Assembly (NCBI GenBank): GCA_905479515.1
Contig: CAJQMX010000342.1
Location: 1-12,075, forward strand
Source of the DNA: an uncultured Parasphingopyxis sp.
GTDB taxonomy: Bacteria > Pseudomonadota > Alphaproteobacteria > Sphingomonadales > Sphingomonadaceae
DNA: 12,075 nt
Reading direction: 5' to 3'
Position 1 is the first letter of the stretch. Every line of letters begins with the position of its first letter. Both the position numbers and the translations under genes were made by a program. Shown here piece by piece: positions 1 through 11,392 of the stretch. Under the pieces are notes generated by a model. It was not told the DNA's origin. It was given only the letters and a program-made list of their open reading frames with translations, and made no database searches.

Positions 1-927
1 ATCGAGATGGACATAGTCGAGGCCGAAGCGCTTGATCTCGTGATCGATGGCGCGGGCGACGATATCGCGGGGGGCGAGCTCTTCGCGGGAATCGAATTCC
101 GGCATGAAGCGATGGCCGGGATCGGGCGCATCCTGCGGTAGCTTCAGATGCCCGCCTTCGCCGCGCACGGCCTCGGTTATCAGGAAGTTCTTGACCTCCA
201 GATTATAGAGGCAGGTCGGATGGAACTGCATGAATTCCATGTTGGAAATGCTGCATCCGGCGCGCCAGGCCATGGCGATGCCGTCTCCGGTTGCGCCGCG
301 CGGCGCGGTCGAGAACAGATAGGTGCGGCCTGCGCCGCCAGTGGCGAGGATCGTCGCGCGCGCGGAAAAGGCTTCGACATGGCCGCTCGCCTTGTTGAAG
401 GCATAGGCGCCCCAGATATGATCGGTGCCGGTTGGCTCCTCGCAGTGCCGGTCGGTGATCAGATCGACCGCGACCATATCGGGCAGCATCGTGATATTGG
501 GGTTGGCCTCGGCGGCGCGCTCCAGCGCGACCTGCACGGCCCAGCCGGTGGCATCGTCGACATGGACAATGCGGCGATGGCTATGCCCGCCCTCGCGCGT
601 CAGATGAAGATCGCCATCATCCTCGACATTGAAAGGCACGCCAAGCTCGACAAGATTGGCGATCGCGCGCGGCGCATTCTCGACGACGAATTCCACCGTT
701 TCGCGGCGGTTCAGGCCTGCGCCCGCATCCATCGTGTCGTCGATATGGCTTTCGAAGGTATCGCCGGGTTCCAGAACGGCCGCAATCCCGCCCTGTGCCC
801 AGGCCGTAGACCCGCCCGAGATCGCGCCCTTGGCGAGCACCAGAACCTTGAACTTTTCGGCCAGTGTAATGGCGGCGGTCAGCCCGGCGGCTCCCGAACC
901 GATGATGAGGATGTCATGGTCGGCCAT
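1..927 (-). CDS. nadB: L-aspartate oxidase, N-terminal 309 residues (partial)
   Basis: The reading frame is open from an ATG at 927 to the window edge, giving 309 codons with no stop; full-length family members are about 530 residues, so the C-terminal part lies outside. NadB is a cytoplasmic FAD enzyme that oxidises L-aspartate to iminoaspartate, the first step of bacterial NAD synthesis, before quinolinate synthase NadA. The N-terminus carries the dinucleotide-binding motif IIGSGAAGL (residues 8-16). The STAWAQGGIAAV segment (40-51) is typical of NadB and related fumarate reductase/succinate dehydrogenase flavoproteins. TREGGHSHRR (110-119) and APRDIVARAID (285-295) match conserved active-site blocks. 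The absence of succinate dehydrogenase neighbours and the STAWAQGG wording favour NadB over SdhA. The start codon shares one base with the TAA stop of the DUF559 gene upstream. The Shine-Dalgarno GGAGG (941-937) lies inside the palindromic repeat, so translation may be coupled or structure-dependent. Confidence 0.93.
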   Translation of the reverse strand, partial: MADHDILIIGSGAAGLTAAITLAEKFKVLVLAKGAISGGSTAWAQGGIAAVLEPGDTFESHIDDTMDAGAGLNRRETVEFVVENAPRAIANLVELGVPFNVEDDGDLHLTREGGHSHRRIVHVDDATGWAVQVALERAAEANPNITMLPDMVAVDLITDRHCEEPTGTDHIWGAYAFNKASGHVEAFSARATILATGGAGRTYLFSTAPRGATGDGIAMAWRAGCSISNMEFMQFHPTCLYNLEVKNFLITEAVRGEGGHLKLPQDAPDPGHRFMPEFDSREELAPRDIVARAIDHEIKRFGLDYVHLD

Positions 928-1310
928 TATGTCTCCCCTCCCGCTTGCGGGAGGGGTTGGGGGTGGGCCTGAAATGCGCTCTCGATCACCATAAGCGCCC
1001 CTTCGACATTCTCGAGAATATCGGTGTTGCTGATTCGAAGCACCGTCAGTCCTTTCGATTCTAGATAGCGTGTCCGCCGCTGGTCTTCTGCTTGTCGTGC
1101 ATCGTGCGAAAAGCCGTCGAGTTCGACGACAAGATTTTCAGCTCGGCATAGAAAATCGACGAAATATGGGCCGATGGGCATCTGCCGGCTGAACTTTCGG
1201 CCAGAGAGCTGGCGCTTGCTCAGATAATTCCAAAGTTCGCGCTCTGCTGGCGTCGCACTGTTGCGAAGCTTGCGGGCACGCTCAGTGTCACGGGGTTGGA
1301 ACTGGCCCAC
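927..1310 (-). CDS. DUF559 (Vsr-like) endonuclease-domain protein
   Basis: This is a small protein of about 127 residues covering a whole DUF559 domain, related to very-short-patch-repair (Vsr) and other PD-(D/E)XK nucleases. Visible motifs, numbered from the GTG start, are ATPAERELW near residue 20, PIGPYFVDF with the candidate catalytic Asp52, VVELDG with Glu63 and Asp65, His69, and VLRISNTDIL near 91-100. No ATG exists in frame. I chose GTG at 1310 because GGAGG (1323-1319) sits 8 bases upstream; a TTG at 1328 lies in the repeat's loop and would add six residues. The last dozen residues (HPQPLPQAGGET) are simply the left palindrome read through. The gene is framed by the inverted repeats at 935-969 and 1304-1338, and its TAA stop overlaps the nadB ATG. 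The substrate is unknown: the family is assigned by sequence resemblance, and a role in DNA cleavage or repair is inferred. Confidence 0.85.
   Translation of the reverse strand: MGQFQPRDTERARKLRNSATPAERELWNYLSKRQLSGRKFSRQMPIGPYFVDFLCRAENLVVELDGFSHDARQAEDQRRTRYLESKGLTVLRISNTDILENVEGALMVIESAFQAHPQPLPQAGGET
935..969 (+). repeat. Palindromic repeat, left copy (inverted partner at 1304-1338)
   Basis: This copy has a perfect 10-bp stem, CCCCTCCCGC (935-944) and GCGGGAGGGG (947-956), separated by TT. A 13-base G-rich tail follows (957-969), ending GGTGGGCC. The other copy is in inverse orientation and matches at 33 of 35 positions. It overlaps the 3' end of the DUF559 gene, where it encodes the proline-rich tail HPQPLPQAGG, and lies just before nadB. 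There is no T-tract, so it is not a standard intrinsic terminator. I regard this GC-rich palindrome as a REP-like dispersed element; copy number elsewhere in the genome cannot be seen here. Confidence 0.85.
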
Positions 1311-1338
1311 CCCTAGCCCCTCCCGCAAGCGGGAGGGG
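1304..1338 (-). repeat. Palindromic repeat, right copy (inverted partner at 935-969)
   Basis: Read on the minus strand this copy starts with the same 10-bp stem (1338-1329 and 1326-1317) and ends with a 13-base tail differing at two positions from the left copy. The G-rich tails of both copies point inward, towards the DUF559 coding region. The copy sits between the ABC ATPase stop (1363) and the DUF559 start. Its 3' stem arm provides GGAGG, and its tail provides the likely GTG start codon of the DUF559 gene. Confidence 0.85.
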
Positions 1339-1362
1339 GATTTTCGTGTCCTCCCGAACGCG

Positions 1363-2283
1363 TCACGCCGCGTCCCGGGTCAGGTTGAGGAACACATCTT
1401 CAAGATCGGCTTCGCGCGTCGTGACGTCGATAATCGTATGGCCGGCCTCGCCAAGCGCCGTGAGCACTTCGCCTGCATTCACCTTGTCCTTGCGGTAGGT
1501 GATCGTCATCGTGTTGGAATTGATCTGTTCGATTTTCTCAAAGCAGCTTTTGTCGGGCATGGCCGTGATGTCCTGTTCGACCGTCACGACAACCGCCTTT
1601 TCCTGCGCCATATTCACCAGCTCGCGGGTTGGCTTGTCGGCGATCAGCTTGCCGTGATTGATGATCGCGATCCGGTCGCACAGTTCCTCGGCTTCTTCGA
1701 GATAATGCGTAGTGAGCACGACGGTCACACCGCCAGCATGCAGTTCGCGGACATAATCCCAGAGCTGACGACGCAAATCGATATCAACGCCAGCGGTCGG
1801 TTCATCAAGGATGAGCACGGGCGGCGTATGGACCATCGCCTTGGCAACCATCAGACGGCGCTTCATTCCGCCCGAAAGTGTGCGGGCATAGGCATCGGCC
1901 TTGTCCTCAAGACGGACCGCCTTGAGCAATTCCATCGTGCGACGGTTCTTCTTCGAAATGCCGTAGAGACCGGCCTGGATATCAAGCGTCTCGGCGGGCG
2001 TGAAGAAGGGATCGAACATGATCTCCTGATTGACGATGCCGATGCTCGCCTTGGCGTTGCGCGGATCCTGGTCGATATCGAACCCCCAGATCGAGGCCGA
2101 ACCTTCGGTCTTGTTCACCAGCCCGGCAAGGATGTTGATCAACGTCGATTTGCCAGCGCCATTTGGCCCAAGCAGGCCGAAAATCGAGCCGCGCGGGATC
2201 GTCAGATTGACGGCATCGAGTGCGCGAACATCGCCCTCATAGATTTTGGTGACATTTTCGACATGAATAGCTGCATCGGTCAT
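1363..2283 (-). CDS. ABC-2 type transporter ATP-binding protein
   Basis: This is a cytoplasmic nucleotide-binding subunit of about 306 residues. From the ATG at 2283 it shows Walker A GPNGAGKST (39-47), a Q-loop Gln86 in IVNQE, signature LSGGM (136-140), Walker B LILDEP (157-162) followed by TAGVD, and H-loop His193 in TTHYLEEAE. A C-terminal extension of about 90 residues ends DLEDVFLNLTRD, typical of the CcmA/YadG-like ABC-2 exporter group. An upstream in-frame ATG at 2295 would add four residues (MRGR). I prefer 2283 because MTDAAIHVENV resembles usual family starts, but neither start has a convincing Shine-Dalgarno. No permease gene lies next to it: the DUF559 cassette and nadB follow downstream, and a divergent DUF4402 gene lies upstream. 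The substrate therefore cannot be inferred. Confidence 0.93.
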   Translation of the reverse strand: MTDAAIHVENVTKIYEGDVRALDAVNLTIPRGSIFGLLGPNGAGKSTLINILAGLVNKTEGSASIWGFDIDQDPRNAKASIGIVNQEIMFDPFFTPAETLDIQAGLYGISKKNRRTMELLKAVRLEDKADAYARTLSGGMKRRLMVAKAMVHTPPVLILDEPTAGVDIDLRRQLWDYVRELHAGGVTVVLTTHYLEEAEELCDRIAIINHGKLIADKPTRELVNMAQEKAVVVTVEQDITAMPDKSCFEKIEQINSNTMTITYRKDKVNAGEVLTALGEAGHTIIDVTTREADLEDVFLNLTRDAA

Positions 2284-2285
2284 GC

Positions 2286-2311
2286 GCCCGCGCATAGCCT
2301 GTCGCGCGGGC
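2286..2311 (-). other. Hairpin over the ABC ATPase start region
   Basis: There is a perfect 8-bp inverted repeat, GCCCGCGC (2286-2293) with GCGCGGGC (2304-2311), around a 10-base loop. It lies immediately upstream of the preferred ATG at 2283, and the alternative ATG at 2295 begins inside the loop. There is no T-tract, so a terminator is unlikely. In the ABC mRNA it would be a GC-rich 5' structure that could limit ribosome access. The role is inferred. Confidence 0.45.
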
Positions 2312-3079: not shown

Positions 3080-3586
3080 CTAGAAATAGGTGACGGTTAT
3101 CTCGAAGTCGCCTTCATACACACCAGGTGCCTGATTGGCACCGACCTGCAATCTGCCCCCCACGCGCAGATCAAGCAGGCCAGCGCCGCTCAGATACCGG
3201 TAAACCGGGCCGTTTAGCGTCAGCTGCGTGACATTCATGCTGCCTCCGCCGCCGACCCGATCGAGAACCGGAAGAGGGCCGCGCGTTACATAAATATACT
3301 GCCGCGGCCCTCCATAGGTCCAAAATTGGGCGGCCTGCCCCCCCGAACCGGCCGCCGTGACACCGCCCGTTACCGAGCGAGCGTCATTAGTTGGATCGAT
3401 GACCACCGTCCCGGCCGTGGCCCCGGACAATAGTGCACCAAATTCGAGATCGCTTGTGTTGACCAATGAAAGCGGCGTCACGATGACGGCTTCAGAGTCA
3501 CCGGTTACGTCAGCGGCAAGCGCTGTTCCGGTGTAGCTCAAGGCCATAACTGGAGCCATGATGGCCCATAACGTTTCGCGTTTCAT
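3080..3586 (-). CDS. DUF4402 secreted protein 2
   Basis: The product is 168 residues with a signal peptide at 1-24 (ALA cleavage site) and a mature DUF4402 domain without cysteines. Conserved blocks are VIVTPLSLVNTSDLEFGALL (34-53), VVIDPTNDARSVTGGV (61-76), and the C-terminal GGRLQVGANQAPGVYEG (143-159) followed by an alternating-hydrophobic final strand. The last block is nearly identical to those of the two flanking paralogues. The ATG at 3586 follows a G-rich stretch, CCGGGGGGA, a few bases upstream. It converges with paralogue 1 and diverges from paralogue 3. TTAACCAT (minus strand, 3656-3649) lies about 63 bases upstream. It is probably an exported surface or pilin-like subunit; this is inferred from fold resemblance only, and no chaperone or usher gene is nearby. 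Confidence 0.86.
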   Translation of the reverse strand: MKRETLWAIMAPVMALSYTGTALAADVTGDSEAVIVTPLSLVNTSDLEFGALLSGATAGTVVIDPTNDARSVTGGVTAAGSGGQAAQFWTYGGPRQYIYVTRGPLPVLDRVGGGGSMNVTQLTLNGPVYRYLSGAGLLDLRVGGRLQVGANQAPGVYEGDFEITVTYF

Positions 3587-3872
3587 AAATCCCCCCGGAT
3601 CTGAAAAAATGCTTTTGGCCGAACATACTCAAGATCAGGTCAAGTCTTATGGTTAACAAGGCGGTAACAAACAGATCGGGGTGAAGCCTTTGTTAAGGGT
3701 GTTCCACAGGGAAGCTTTAAGGCGTGCGGGCGTAATGACTCCACATGACATGGAAAACACTCTCCGGCTTCTGGCACAAGATTGCCCGCGAATTTTCGGC
3801 TTCTGCCGTTCTGGCGGCGCGTATCTTCCAGTCGGGCCCGGCCTGACCTTCAGCGGCGCCCATGGCGAAATC
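3587..3872. promoter_or_regulatory. Divergent intergenic region between DUF4402 genes 2 and 3
   Basis: These 286 bases hold no confident gene. They contain TTAACCAT on the minus strand (3656-3649) and GTTCGGCCA on the minus strand (3624-3616), both shared with the region upstream of DUF4402 gene 1. An imperfect inverted repeat pairs TTAACAAGGC (3653-3662) with GCCTTTGTTAA (3686-3696), with one extra T. Small hairpins lie close to gene 3 (CGGC/GCCG at 3797-3808; GTCGGG/CCTGAC at 3831-3847). The region presumably carries both promoters; no clear -35/-10 pair could be fixed by eye. A weak 33-codon frame at 3745-3846 is probably chance. Confidence 0.5.
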
Positions 3873-4430
3873 ATGAAAACCAAGCGATCCAGTCTTTCCC
3901 GGCAGTTCATGCGCGGTATATTGGCGGCGGGCGCCCTTCTGACGGGCAGCCTCGGTTCTGTGGCGGCCTGTGCCGCTGACGAGACCGGCCAGTCCGATGC
4001 GAAAATTCTGTCGATGGCGGGGCTCGTCAACCTTGATGATCTGGCATTCGGGTCGCTGATTCCCGGCGCATCGGGCGGCAGCGTAACCATCAATCCCGCC
4101 AATGGCGCACGTGCGACAACCGGTTCGGTTGTCGGGGCCGCCAGCACCTATCACCCCGCCCGCTTTCGGGCGAACGGCAGCCCCAATGTGCTGGCGCTGA
4201 TAGCGCTCCCAACGTCAGCCACGATCACCAATCAGAATGGCCCGGGCACGATGACGGTCAACAATTTCAATGTCGATGGCGCGGCGCAGATTCTCTTCGT
4301 CGGCCTGGCGGTCAATCTCGGCCCCACGGGTGTCCGTGATCTGGATTTCGGCGCGCGGCTCAATGTCGGTGCGAATCAGGAGCCGGGCAGCTATGAAGGC
4401 ACTTTCAACGTCACGGTAATCTATCTCTAA
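3873..4430 (+). CDS. DUF4402 secreted protein 3
   Basis: The product is 185 residues. A twin-basic N-terminus and hydrophobic stretch give a signal peptide of about 34 residues ending ACA|AD. The mature domain keeps the family blocks: LVNLDDLAFGSLIPGASGG (51-69), VTINPANGARATTGSV (71-86), TMTVNNFNVDG (126-136), and ARLNVGANQEPGSYEGTFNV (161-180) plus a final strand. It is clearly paralogous to the two genes upstream, and closest to gene 2 in the first block. The frame is open back to a GTG at 3681, but I place the start at ATG 3873 because the signal peptide begins there and the upstream 64 codons look non-secretory and unrelated to the family. The Shine-Dalgarno is poor, so the start is less sure than the gene. 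A pilin-like surface role is inferred. Confidence 0.83.
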   Translation: MKTKRSSLSRQFMRGILAAGALLTGSLGSVAACAADETGQSDAKILSMAGLVNLDDLAFGSLIPGASGGSVTINPANGARATTGSVVGAASTYHPARFRANGSPNVLALIALPTSATITNQNGPGTMTVNNFNVDGAAQILFVGLAVNLGPTGVRDLDFGARLNVGANQEPGSYEGTFNVTVIYL

Positions 4431-4452
4431 ACGCCGTGGCCGATTGATTAGG

Positions 4453-4478
4453 TCGAGGCGCTTTGCTAAGCGCGCGAC
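4453..4478 (+). other. Hairpin directly before the zf-CHCC gene start
   Basis: GCGCTT (4458-4463) pairs with AAGCGC (4468-4473) around a TGCT loop. After one mismatch the stem extends with GTCG (4453-4456) and CGAC (4475-4478). The structure ends three bases before the ATG at 4482 and occupies the usual ribosome-binding position. There is no T-tract. It could weaken transcription leaving DUF4402 gene 3 or control translation of the next gene; both are inference. Confidence 0.4.
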
Positions 4479-10176: not shown

Positions 10177-10210
10177 GGGCCGGTGGAGCAATCCGCCGGC
10201 CCATTTTTTT
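10177..10210 (+). terminator. Intrinsic terminator of glnK-amtB
   Basis: An 11-bp stem (10177-10187 with 10192-10202, one G-T pair) carries a GCAA tetraloop and is followed by A and seven T residues (10204-10210). It lies 24 bases after the amtB stop. The T-tract runs into the stop codon of the convergent minus-strand gene. Confidence 0.93.
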
Positions 10211-10502
10211 AGAGGCAGTTGCCTTGGGAACAGGCTGCAACGAGCATGGCAGAAGGGCTCAAAATAATCAGCATGAGCACAAGGCTACAGCATGGAAGCA
10301 AGAATTGACGCTTCCGAACCGCGAGCACTGAAATCACTGTCCAGATACTGAAAGCGGACCAAAAGAGTATCCACGTTCCATTCCCTGCACTACCGAGAGG
10401 GAGCAGCAAGGCATCGGAAAAGTCGAATAGGCTGTAGATCGCCACGGCCAGAAAAAGAGTCGTCGCAAGGGCAAGGGAAACTTCGCCAGCTCGAATACCC
10501 AT
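10209..10502 (-). CDS. Small hydrophobic membrane protein, unknown
   Basis: I do not recognise this 97-residue protein. It has three hydrophobic stretches likely to span the membrane (about residues 8-24, 43-61 and 67-91), separated by short polar loops (including RKRQ at 63-66), and ends in a Cys-containing tail, CSQGNCL. The ATG shares one base with the TAA stop of the desaturase gene upstream (TAATG), and GGAGGATGA precedes it, so translation is probably coupled. Its stop codon falls in the T-tract of the amtB terminator. The base composition is visibly lower in GC than the neighbours, which may mean a poorly conserved or recently acquired gene. The continuous hydrophobic pattern and overlap support a real gene, but conservation has not been tested. 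Confidence 0.6.
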   Translation of the reverse strand: MGIRAGEVSLALATTLFLAVAIYSLFDFSDALLLPLGSAGNGTWILFWSAFSIWTVISVLAVRKRQFLLPCCSLVLMLIILSPSAMLVAACSQGNCL

Positions 10503-11392
10503 TACTGGGAATCATCCTCCCGCCACCGCGCCCTGATCGTATCGCTGGTATCGCGCGACCCGTCATGGCTCCAGCCAGGCGGGCGGATCATATAATTAAG
10601 CTTGTTGCGCAGCCCCGGCACGGTGAACACATCCTTCGCAATGCCGATCCATTCATGGAAGGCCGCCCATAACAGGTTGAAGCTGCCGAGGTTCCTGATG
10701 ATGCCGTACCGCGGCCTGTCCTCGTCTAGCTCGGCGGTGAAGGTGCCGAACATCTTGTCCCAGATAATGAAAACCCCGGCATAATTCCTGTCGAGATAGC
10801 GCGGGTTCGTCGCATGATGGACGCGGTGGTGCGAGGGCGTGTTGAAGATCGCCTCAAACCAGCGCGGCATCCGGCCAATCGTCTCGGTATGGATCCAGAA
10901 TTGATAGACCAGGTTCACGCCGCTCACGAAAATCAGCATCTCGACCGGAAAGCCGATCAGGATGAGCGGCAGGCTGAAGACGAAGGAGAGGCTGAAGAAT
11001 CCGGTCCAGGTCTGCCTGAGCGCGGTCGAGAGATTATAATGCTGGCTCGTATGGTGGATGACATGGCTTGCCCAGAACCAGCGGACCCGGTGGGCGGCGC
11101 GGTGAAACACATAATAGGCCAGATCGTCGAGCAGAAAGGCGACGATCCACGCCCACCAGACATAGCCGATATCGAACAGACGAAACTGGTACAGCCAGAC
11201 TGATAGCGCGATGACAGTCGCGCCGGTCAGCGCGCCGGCGACCGTGCTGCCGGTTCCCAGCAATAGGGAGGTCAGCGTGTCCTTGGCCTCATAGCGGCTG
11301 GGATCGAACCGCCGGGCAACCAGCATCTCGATCAGCACGAGGATGATAAAGGCGGGAACCGCGACCTGGGTCGGGCTTGGCAGTTCGGGCAT
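10502..11392 (-). CDS. Sterol desaturase / fatty acid hydroxylase family membrane protein
   Basis: This is a 296-residue integral membrane protein with the di-iron histidine boxes of the fatty acid hydroxylase superfamily: HRAAH (97-101), HVIHH (110-114), and HHRVHH (188-193), plus His168 in FWIHTE. Hydrophobic segments occupy roughly 11-27, 50-70, 77-96, 131-148 and 149-165. Members use oxygen and two iron ions to hydroxylate or desaturate lipids such as sterols, fatty acids or alkylglycerols; the substrate cannot be told from sequence. The ATG lies one base after the stop of the 130-residue gene upstream, and its TAA overlaps the next ATG, so it is in the middle of a tight four-gene unit with a TIGR01244 protein. 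Confidence 0.93.
   Translation of the reverse strand: MPELPSPTQVAVPAFIILVLIEMLVARRFDPSRYEAKDTLTSLLLGTGSTVAGALTGATVIALSVWLYQFRLFDIGYVWWAWIVAFLLDDLAYYVFHRAAHRVRWFWASHVIHHTSQHYNLSTALRQTWTGFFSLSFVFSLPLILIGFPVEMLIFVSGVNLVYQFWIHTETIGRMPRWFEAIFNTPSHHRVHHATNPRYLDRNYAGVFIIWDKMFGTFTAELDEDRPRYGIIRNLGSFNLLWAAFHEWIGIAKDVFTVPGLRNKLNYMIRPPGWSHDGSRDTSDTIRARWREDDSQ

Follow-up and report, generated by a model that had tools for sequence, protein, structure and literature searches.

The window, i.e., the whole stretch of 12,075 nt of DNA analysed here, carries a small DUF559 gene that is framed by two inverted copies of a hairpin-forming repeat and that is inserted between two genes adjacent to each other in the closest relative found. 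We read this unit as a REP-nuclease cassette without a transposase. That is, DUF559 would act on its own cognate folded repeat, and host repair would spread the unit. Based on the sequence comparisons given below, we assign this reading a probability of roughly 60%. What can be read directly from the sequences are the architecture of the unit, its recurrence at other loci, the pairing of nuclease clades with repeat types, gene-less repeat pairs, an empty site in a relative and an insertion into a coding sequence.

The coordinates of the respective features are compiled in Table 1. The two neighbouring genes, which we take to be nadB and an ABC transporter ATPase gene, are named from the sequence-only reading. 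This reading had described two 35-base hairpin repeats, identical at 33 of 35 positions, in opposite orientation with tails pointing inward, which enclose exactly one gene, a DUF559 nuclease. Both observations are confirmed. The inverted pair (935-969 / 1304-1338) covers 35 nt with 33/35 positions complementary (94%) and 334 nt between the arms, while DUF559 is the sole gene inside the inserted segment, its ORF (927-1328) matching PF04480/DUF559 with 118.9 bits (cut-off 20.6). Each copy consists of a 22-nt hairpin, whose 10-nt arms pair perfectly around a 2-nt loop, followed by a 13-nt inward tail, such that a copy read toward the gene is composed of CCCCTCCCGC-TT-GCGGGAGGGG, a three-letter linker and GGGGTGGGC. 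The additional claim that the copies form the terminal codons of the gene holds for the C-terminus, where the repeat encodes HPQPLPQAGGE. For the N-terminus, the answer differs between the two candidate starts, a TTG in the palindrome and a GTG in the tail.

Table 1. Positions of the cassette, its parts and its neighbours within the window.
Feature	Position	Strand	Remarks
DUF559 (PF04480) Vsr-like predicted nuclease gene	927..1328	minus	133 aa counted from TTG
Upstream repeat copy	1304..1338	minus	hairpin, tail inward to gene
Hairpin CCCCTCCCGC-TT-GCGGGAGGGG of upstream copy	1317..1338	minus	
Mirror tail GGGGTGGGC of upstream copy	1305..1313	minus	predicted third-strand code for arm GCGGGAGGGG
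Downstream repeat copy	935..969	plus	hairpin 935-956, linker 957-959, tail 960-968, tail inward to gene
Whole inserted segment	923..1362	none	missing from otherwise collinear relative G136
nadB (partial, presumed)	1..926	minus	downstream neighbour
ABC transporter ATPase gene (presumed)	1363..2295	minus	upstream neighbour

By eye, the purine arm GGAGGGG (window 1305-1326) is a possible ribosome-binding site for the GTG start in the tail, and the purine arm at 927-945 is one for the ATG of nadB, where G136 has GTG. Neither window copy shows, by eye, a GTAG tag at the palindrome foot. An Rfam search of window positions 800-1500 gave no match, and neither did PADLOC.

With regard to the encoded protein, profile, fold and conserved residues agree on a predicted DUF559 / Vsr-like nuclease of the PD-(D/E)XK type. 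Its putative active site (E29, D58, E69, D71, H75, D82) is conserved, i.e., the six acidic/histidine residues are invariant in 29/29 aligned DUF559 proteins, E. coli YcjD included. The predicted structure (pLDDT 79.7) matches best the N. gonorrhoeae DUF559 structure 3hrl (E 5.5e-8, TM (target) 0.92), followed by the homing endonuclease I-Bth0305I (E 1e-4). E. coli Vsr (1cw0) is a weak fold match (E 0.19) that ranks under some mitoribosomal proteins and PvuRts1I. We assume both Vsr and I-Bth0305I to belong to the EDxHD group. Comparing the cores of the window gene and of sphingomonad locus L001 yields a dN/dS of about 0.18, with dS being near saturation. The proposal that a REP-like palindrome is combined with a PD-(D/E)XK-type nuclease rather than with an HUH enzyme is supported by the identification of the gene as PF04480.

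The sequence-only reading further suggested checking whether DUF559 genes are flanked by inverted repeats more often than by chance, which is indeed the case. As score, we used the best inverted repeat that one flank of a gene forms with the other, with a threshold of 18. Flanks comprise 250 nt for the 42-locus scan and the plasmid loci, and 300 nt for the 69-locus set, the Pseudomonadota, the GIY-YIG loci and the 400-kb controls. In a scan of genome contigs from sphingomonads and Rhizobiales, 36/42 DUF559 loci show scores of 18-67; many of the Rhizobiales loci among them look like one orthologous site and are thus not independent, i.e., they represent few events. For 1,316 random placements within the same 42 loci, the 99th percentile is 14.85 and the 99.9th is 33.95, with a few placements that landed on other repeat copies reaching 29.5-44.5. 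A DUF559 match is found in 72/147 Sphingomonadales genomes, with up to ten matches in one genome; five of these 72 positives (G020, G029, G072, G078, G090) are weak, which leaves 67 firm ones. Here, 55/69 examined loci score 18 or more, where the set combines the 30 best matches with 39 further places from eight multi-copy genomes (L080 repeats L001). For genome G019 alone, all 8/8 full-length matches examined score at least 18, and the other two matches are partial.

Outside of this group, DUF559 matches occur in 68/200 genomes of a Pseudomonadota sample, many of them weak and inside very long ORFs. Among the 27 loci newly added by this sample within the 30 best, 13 score at least 18 and 14 are under the threshold, two of these at 16-17. 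Eight plasmid loci, picked out of 27 records, provide six with a score of at least 18, including two from Deinococcus and one from the cyanobacterium Pseudanabaena. At both Deinococcus loci (L142, L143) the tails seem, by eye, to point outward from DUF559, which is the reverse of the sphingomonads.

As controls, we scored 4,000 random placements and 328 ORFs within 400 kb of G019. Only 17/4,000 placements and 3/328 ORFs score at least 18; one of the three ORFs is a DUF559 gene and one is located in a repeat array. A second DUF559 gene of this stretch lost its place among the 328 ORFs to an overlapping longer one and reaches 38 when scored directly. Furthermore, none of six Y1_Tnp matches (5 places) and none of five GIY-YIG ORFs of UvrC length are flanked. 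These controls contradict the idea of plain terminators or widespread intergenic repeats, with a small gene placed in between by chance or for expression control. In favour of this idea, the hairpins are G+C-rich and the purine arm may offer a ribosome-binding site, but neither the mirror-coded tails, which are unexpected in terminators, nor the cognate pairing of protein and repeat (both discussed below) fit such a passive role, and we consider it very improbable.

The repeats share a common grammar: read backwards, the tail repeats the purine arm, with G kept as G and A either kept or replaced by T. This mirror rule and the REPIN-like pairs described below go beyond the sequence-only reading. 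Examples of arm/tail combinations are GCGGGAGGGG/GGGGTGGGC, AGGGAGGGG/GGGGTGGGT, GGGAGAGGG/GGGTGAGGG and GGGGGAGAGG/GGAGAGGGGG. The 111 loci offer 222 flanking sides; a qualifying hairpin is present on 190 of them, and the mirror tail is perfect on 158. The mean mirror match is 0.956 over 157 distinct arm-tail pairs compared to 0.835 +/- 0.006 for tails swapped among repeats; this test kept the best-mirroring hairpin per side and thus favours the rule, which is not undone by the swap control. When mirror and direct reading are compared for the 119 asymmetric arms, the mirror wins 87 times, loses twice and ties 30 times. For out-of-sample loci with all hairpins kept, the mirror match is 0.818 vs. 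0.753 +/- 0.009. In the letter table, which is restricted to alignments with at least 8/9 matches, A is mirrored by A or T and C by C. Judged by its letters, the arm-tail rule is the predicted third-strand code of a purine-motif triplex.

The triplex motif as such is already known; it is the link to a nuclease that is new. Holder et al. (2015) describe an intrastrand triplex motif in more than 260 genomes, some instances of which stand in inverted pairs (PMC4666352). The E. coli motif TM_ECO folds as a triplex in vitro according to NMR, in vivo footprinting revealed no stable triplex, and triplex motifs are tied to instability in E. coli; the parts of the paper available to us report no mobility gene or function along with these motifs (PMC4666352). 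PIT elements/TM_ECO have a hairpin, a short linker (TTA or CCG types) and a purine-motif third strand in common with the cassette repeats (PMC4666352). In contrast to the motifs as published, the motif families observed here go with DUF559 clades. Many arms may form a G-quadruplex in place of a triplex, but a quadruplex would not need the mirroring of letters other than G (A by A or T, C by C), and for TM_ECO it was excluded by NMR (PMC4666352).

Within the 400 kb of G019, 52 repeats fit the grammar, whereas reversing the sequence leaves 11 and each of three shuffles leaves 6. They include 12 neighbouring inward pairs with gaps of 26-86 bp, nine of which share an arm and some of which are part of tandem arrays, as well as 13 outward neighbours, where several are either one palindrome called on both strands or array neighbours. 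Inward neighbours at a distance of 150-700 bp are found only twice, and these enclose the two DUF559 genes of the stretch. Like REPs, these repeats occur as inverted pairs, and the pairs resemble REPINs. A search for the repeat among sphingomonads, also proposed from the sequence alone, ties it to the nuclease. The full window-type repeat is present in 23/147 Sphingomonadales genomes with 1 to 39 copies (reversed control: 0), and 23/23 of these genomes are DUF559-positive. The TM-type repeat is found in 22/147 genomes, among them 20 DUF559-positive ones and the DUF559-negative G100 and G136 with one copy each. Hypergeometric values for the co-occurrence with DUF559, uncorrected for kinship, are 9e-9 (window-type) and 1e-5 (TM-type). 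Y1_Tnp is absent from 5/10 DUF559-bearing genomes examined, including G039 and G124, which hold 39 and 18 copies of the full window-type repeat, respectively. A RAYT as mover was rejected for the five genomes without Y1_Tnp.

Paralogous DUF559 genes within one genome bear different palindromes. We related protein identity to repeat similarity for 76/82 sphingomonad loci, i.e., those whose repeat follows the mirror rule with a match of at least 0.85, and left out 168 pairs with similar surroundings. Across genomes, we find a rho of 0.41 (2,582 pairs), which is 0.508 for the eight multi-copy genomes only (43 loci, 768 pairs). Shuffling the repeats within each genome, between its paralogues, gives a rho of 0.018 +/- 0.062 with a maximum of 0.277 among 1,000 shuffles. 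The nearest protein in another genome comes with a similar repeat in 11/43 cases vs. 1.4 expected. This is also reflected in the DUF559 tree, where several clades retain one repeat type across genomes. The support value is 0.193 on the question whether the Sphingobium nadB-site cassettes (L005, L006, L010) on the one hand and those of the window and L001 on the other go back to one insertion or two. In terms of statistical association, DUF559 thus appears to be specific to its own repeat family.

Such a pairing bears on the possibility that DUF559 is a host repair nuclease that resolves folded repeats and is kept adjacent to them by selection, with the repeats spreading otherwise. The Vsr-like fold (1cw0, the weak match with E 0.19) is in accordance with this view, as is the link of triplex motifs with instability in E. 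coli (PMC4666352). The Caulobacter protein VsrA (CCNA_02930), with which the window protein shares the DUF559 domain, is proposed to be a mismatch-repair enzyme (PMC12907096), which points in the same direction. That VsrA is needed for the DNA-damage/SOS response of a methyltransferase mutant (PMC12907096) we count in favour of the REP-nuclease cassette. Host maintenance does not readily explain, however, why one genome has a separate paralogue per repeat family, why the gene is placed between two inverted copies, and why a given site is occupied in few relatives and even coding sequence is invaded. We thus hold it to be quite unlikely.

Empty and filled alleles of one ABC/nadB junction are observed. 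The closest relative found, G136, has a nadB fragment of 96% identity and can be aligned to the window over most of its length, with 82-88% identity at the DNA level, but without 923-1362. At its junction, the stop codon of the ABC gene and the start of nadB overlap. Neither a DUF559 match nor a window-type repeat is found in G136, whose single TM-type repeat is located elsewhere in the genome. A target-site duplication is not evident at the window junction when compared to G136. The sequence-only reading had asked for an empty nadB/ABC junction in close relatives, with or without a single repeat. It is found empty and without a single repeat, which supports the claim that the unit is or was mobile. 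Since the G136 site lacks both repeat and gene, the repeats arrived together with the gene or before it.

A match was obtained in 141 genomes, and we inspected the junctions of the 30 best ones. Within these 30, the gap between ABC and nadB is at most 14 nt in G136 and seven others, and besides the window only L150 (from G001, the genome of L001) holds the cassette. In L169 (G154), the junction contains a repeat pair of another family and no nuclease gene. The remaining inspected junctions show other or longer spacers, or a stretch without the ABC gene. In L156, L164 and L173, a further inverted repeat (CGTTCG..TCGAGCG..GTCGAGA) is located in the ABC/nadB junction, which may therefore be a preferred landing site. 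Two other parts of the window, 3840-4462 and 10208-10512, are also missing or much shorter in G136; the former overlaps one of three ORFs (2363-2938, 3080-3586, 3681-4430) that resemble each other as judged by eye.

Insertion is also seen within a coding sequence. A Pseudanabaena gene, presumably methylase-like as named from its motif, carries an in-frame insertion of repeats and DUF559 as well as a second insertion of repeats alone; neither of them is present in its Aulosira (56.7%) and Azospirillum (52.9%) homologues. Two Deinococcus plasmids carry the DUF559 gene in different slots of what seems to be the same hpa operon. Sequence comparison suggests that such units of gene and repeats move around bacterial genomes.

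Alternatively, this could be due to homing only, where DUF559 would cut existing repeat pairs, the break would be repaired from a repeat-DUF559-repeat donor, and the repeats would spread otherwise. A cassette has precisely the form of a repeat pair that encloses a gene, the 400 kb of G019 hold 12 short inward pairs vs. 2 cassettes, and the homing endonuclease I-Bth0305I is the closest fold after the Neisseria DUF559 structure. On the other hand, the G136 site has neither repeat nor gene, the repeats are nearly confined to DUF559-positive genomes, and Y1_Tnp, the one other candidate mover tested, is missing from 5/10 genomes. Homing as the sole process is thus an unlikely, albeit serious, explanation.

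In E. coli, a decayed palindrome marks the end of the DUF559 gene ycjD, with a triplex motif located 167 nt downstream, and the ycjD locus is not a clean cassette. A segment of 611 bp with ycjD is covered to at least 80% in 3,364/5,426 genomes. We rejected ycjD as a clean empty-site test, given that the four non-carriers examined hold parts of an efflux operon at this position. The listed E. coli strains without ycjD still keep triplex repeats, which implies that repeats can persist without the gene. In one E. coli strain (L138), ycjD is annotated as lacking its C-terminus, and the respective stretch is 106 bp shorter than the query.

Under the preferred reading, i.e., a REP-nuclease cassette that needs no transposase, a repeat that becomes single-stranded due to replication, transcription or supercoiling would fold into a hairpin, and its G-rich tail would bend back to provide a third strand within the groove. 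This folded repeat would be recognised by the cognate DUF559 and cut at its foot, and the freed or broken DNA would be copied or rejoined elsewhere by host replication and repair. The same enzyme would act in trans on short repeat pairs, which would make the latter non-autonomous REPIN-/MITE-like derivatives. We infer the cutting of the palindrome by DUF559 from cognate pairing, co-occurrence and the conserved putative catalytic residues; transfer of the unit is suggested by the compared sites. No PD-(D/E)XK nuclease is known to join strands on its own, such that host repair must be invoked.

REPIN/RAYT systems (REPtrons) likewise show dispersed palindromes in inverted pairs and an enzyme gene flanked by them (PMC3116915), as well as repeat-specific enzymes in genomes with several families (PMC3116915, PMC3733652). 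In contrast, the cassette enzyme is a predicted PD-(D/E)XK-type nuclease and not an HUH Y1 transposase, there is no GTAG, the palindrome is extended by a mirror tail, and up to ten DUF559 matches are found per genome. Vsr and I-Bth0305I share the predicted fold and the conserved acidic/histidine residues with the window DUF559, whereas the latter is not located in an intron and is flanked by its own predicted folded repeats. Compared to a classical insertion sequence, the cassette has no transposase gene, and a target-site duplication is not evident.

A parallel is provided by GIY-YIG genes from ten Sphingomonadales genomes (L180-L209), for which 30/45 listed matches were examined (25 plus the 5 of UvrC length). 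Excluding UvrC-length matches, 21/25 score at least 18. The inverted repeats belong to other palindrome families, and for 10/25 loci CGTC-tagged hairpins are located outside the gene on both sides. CGTC REPs have been described without associated transposase genes (PMC3733652). We tentatively propose, at somewhat less than even odds, that dispersed palindromes are often transposase-free mobile units, with DUF559 serving triplex repeats and small GIY-YIG nucleases serving others, including CGTC-tagged REPs. Each nuclease would cut its own folded repeat, and host repair would spread gene-bearing as well as gene-less copies. Among the open-access titles and abstract starts searched, we found no link of DUF559 or GIY-YIG with such repeats.

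If true, this would account for two repeat classes for which no mobilising enzyme had been described. The domain of unknown function DUF559 would gain a substrate, and recognition of DNA via a folded third strand would be suggested. Finally, a long-known class of mystery repeats would gain its missing enzyme.
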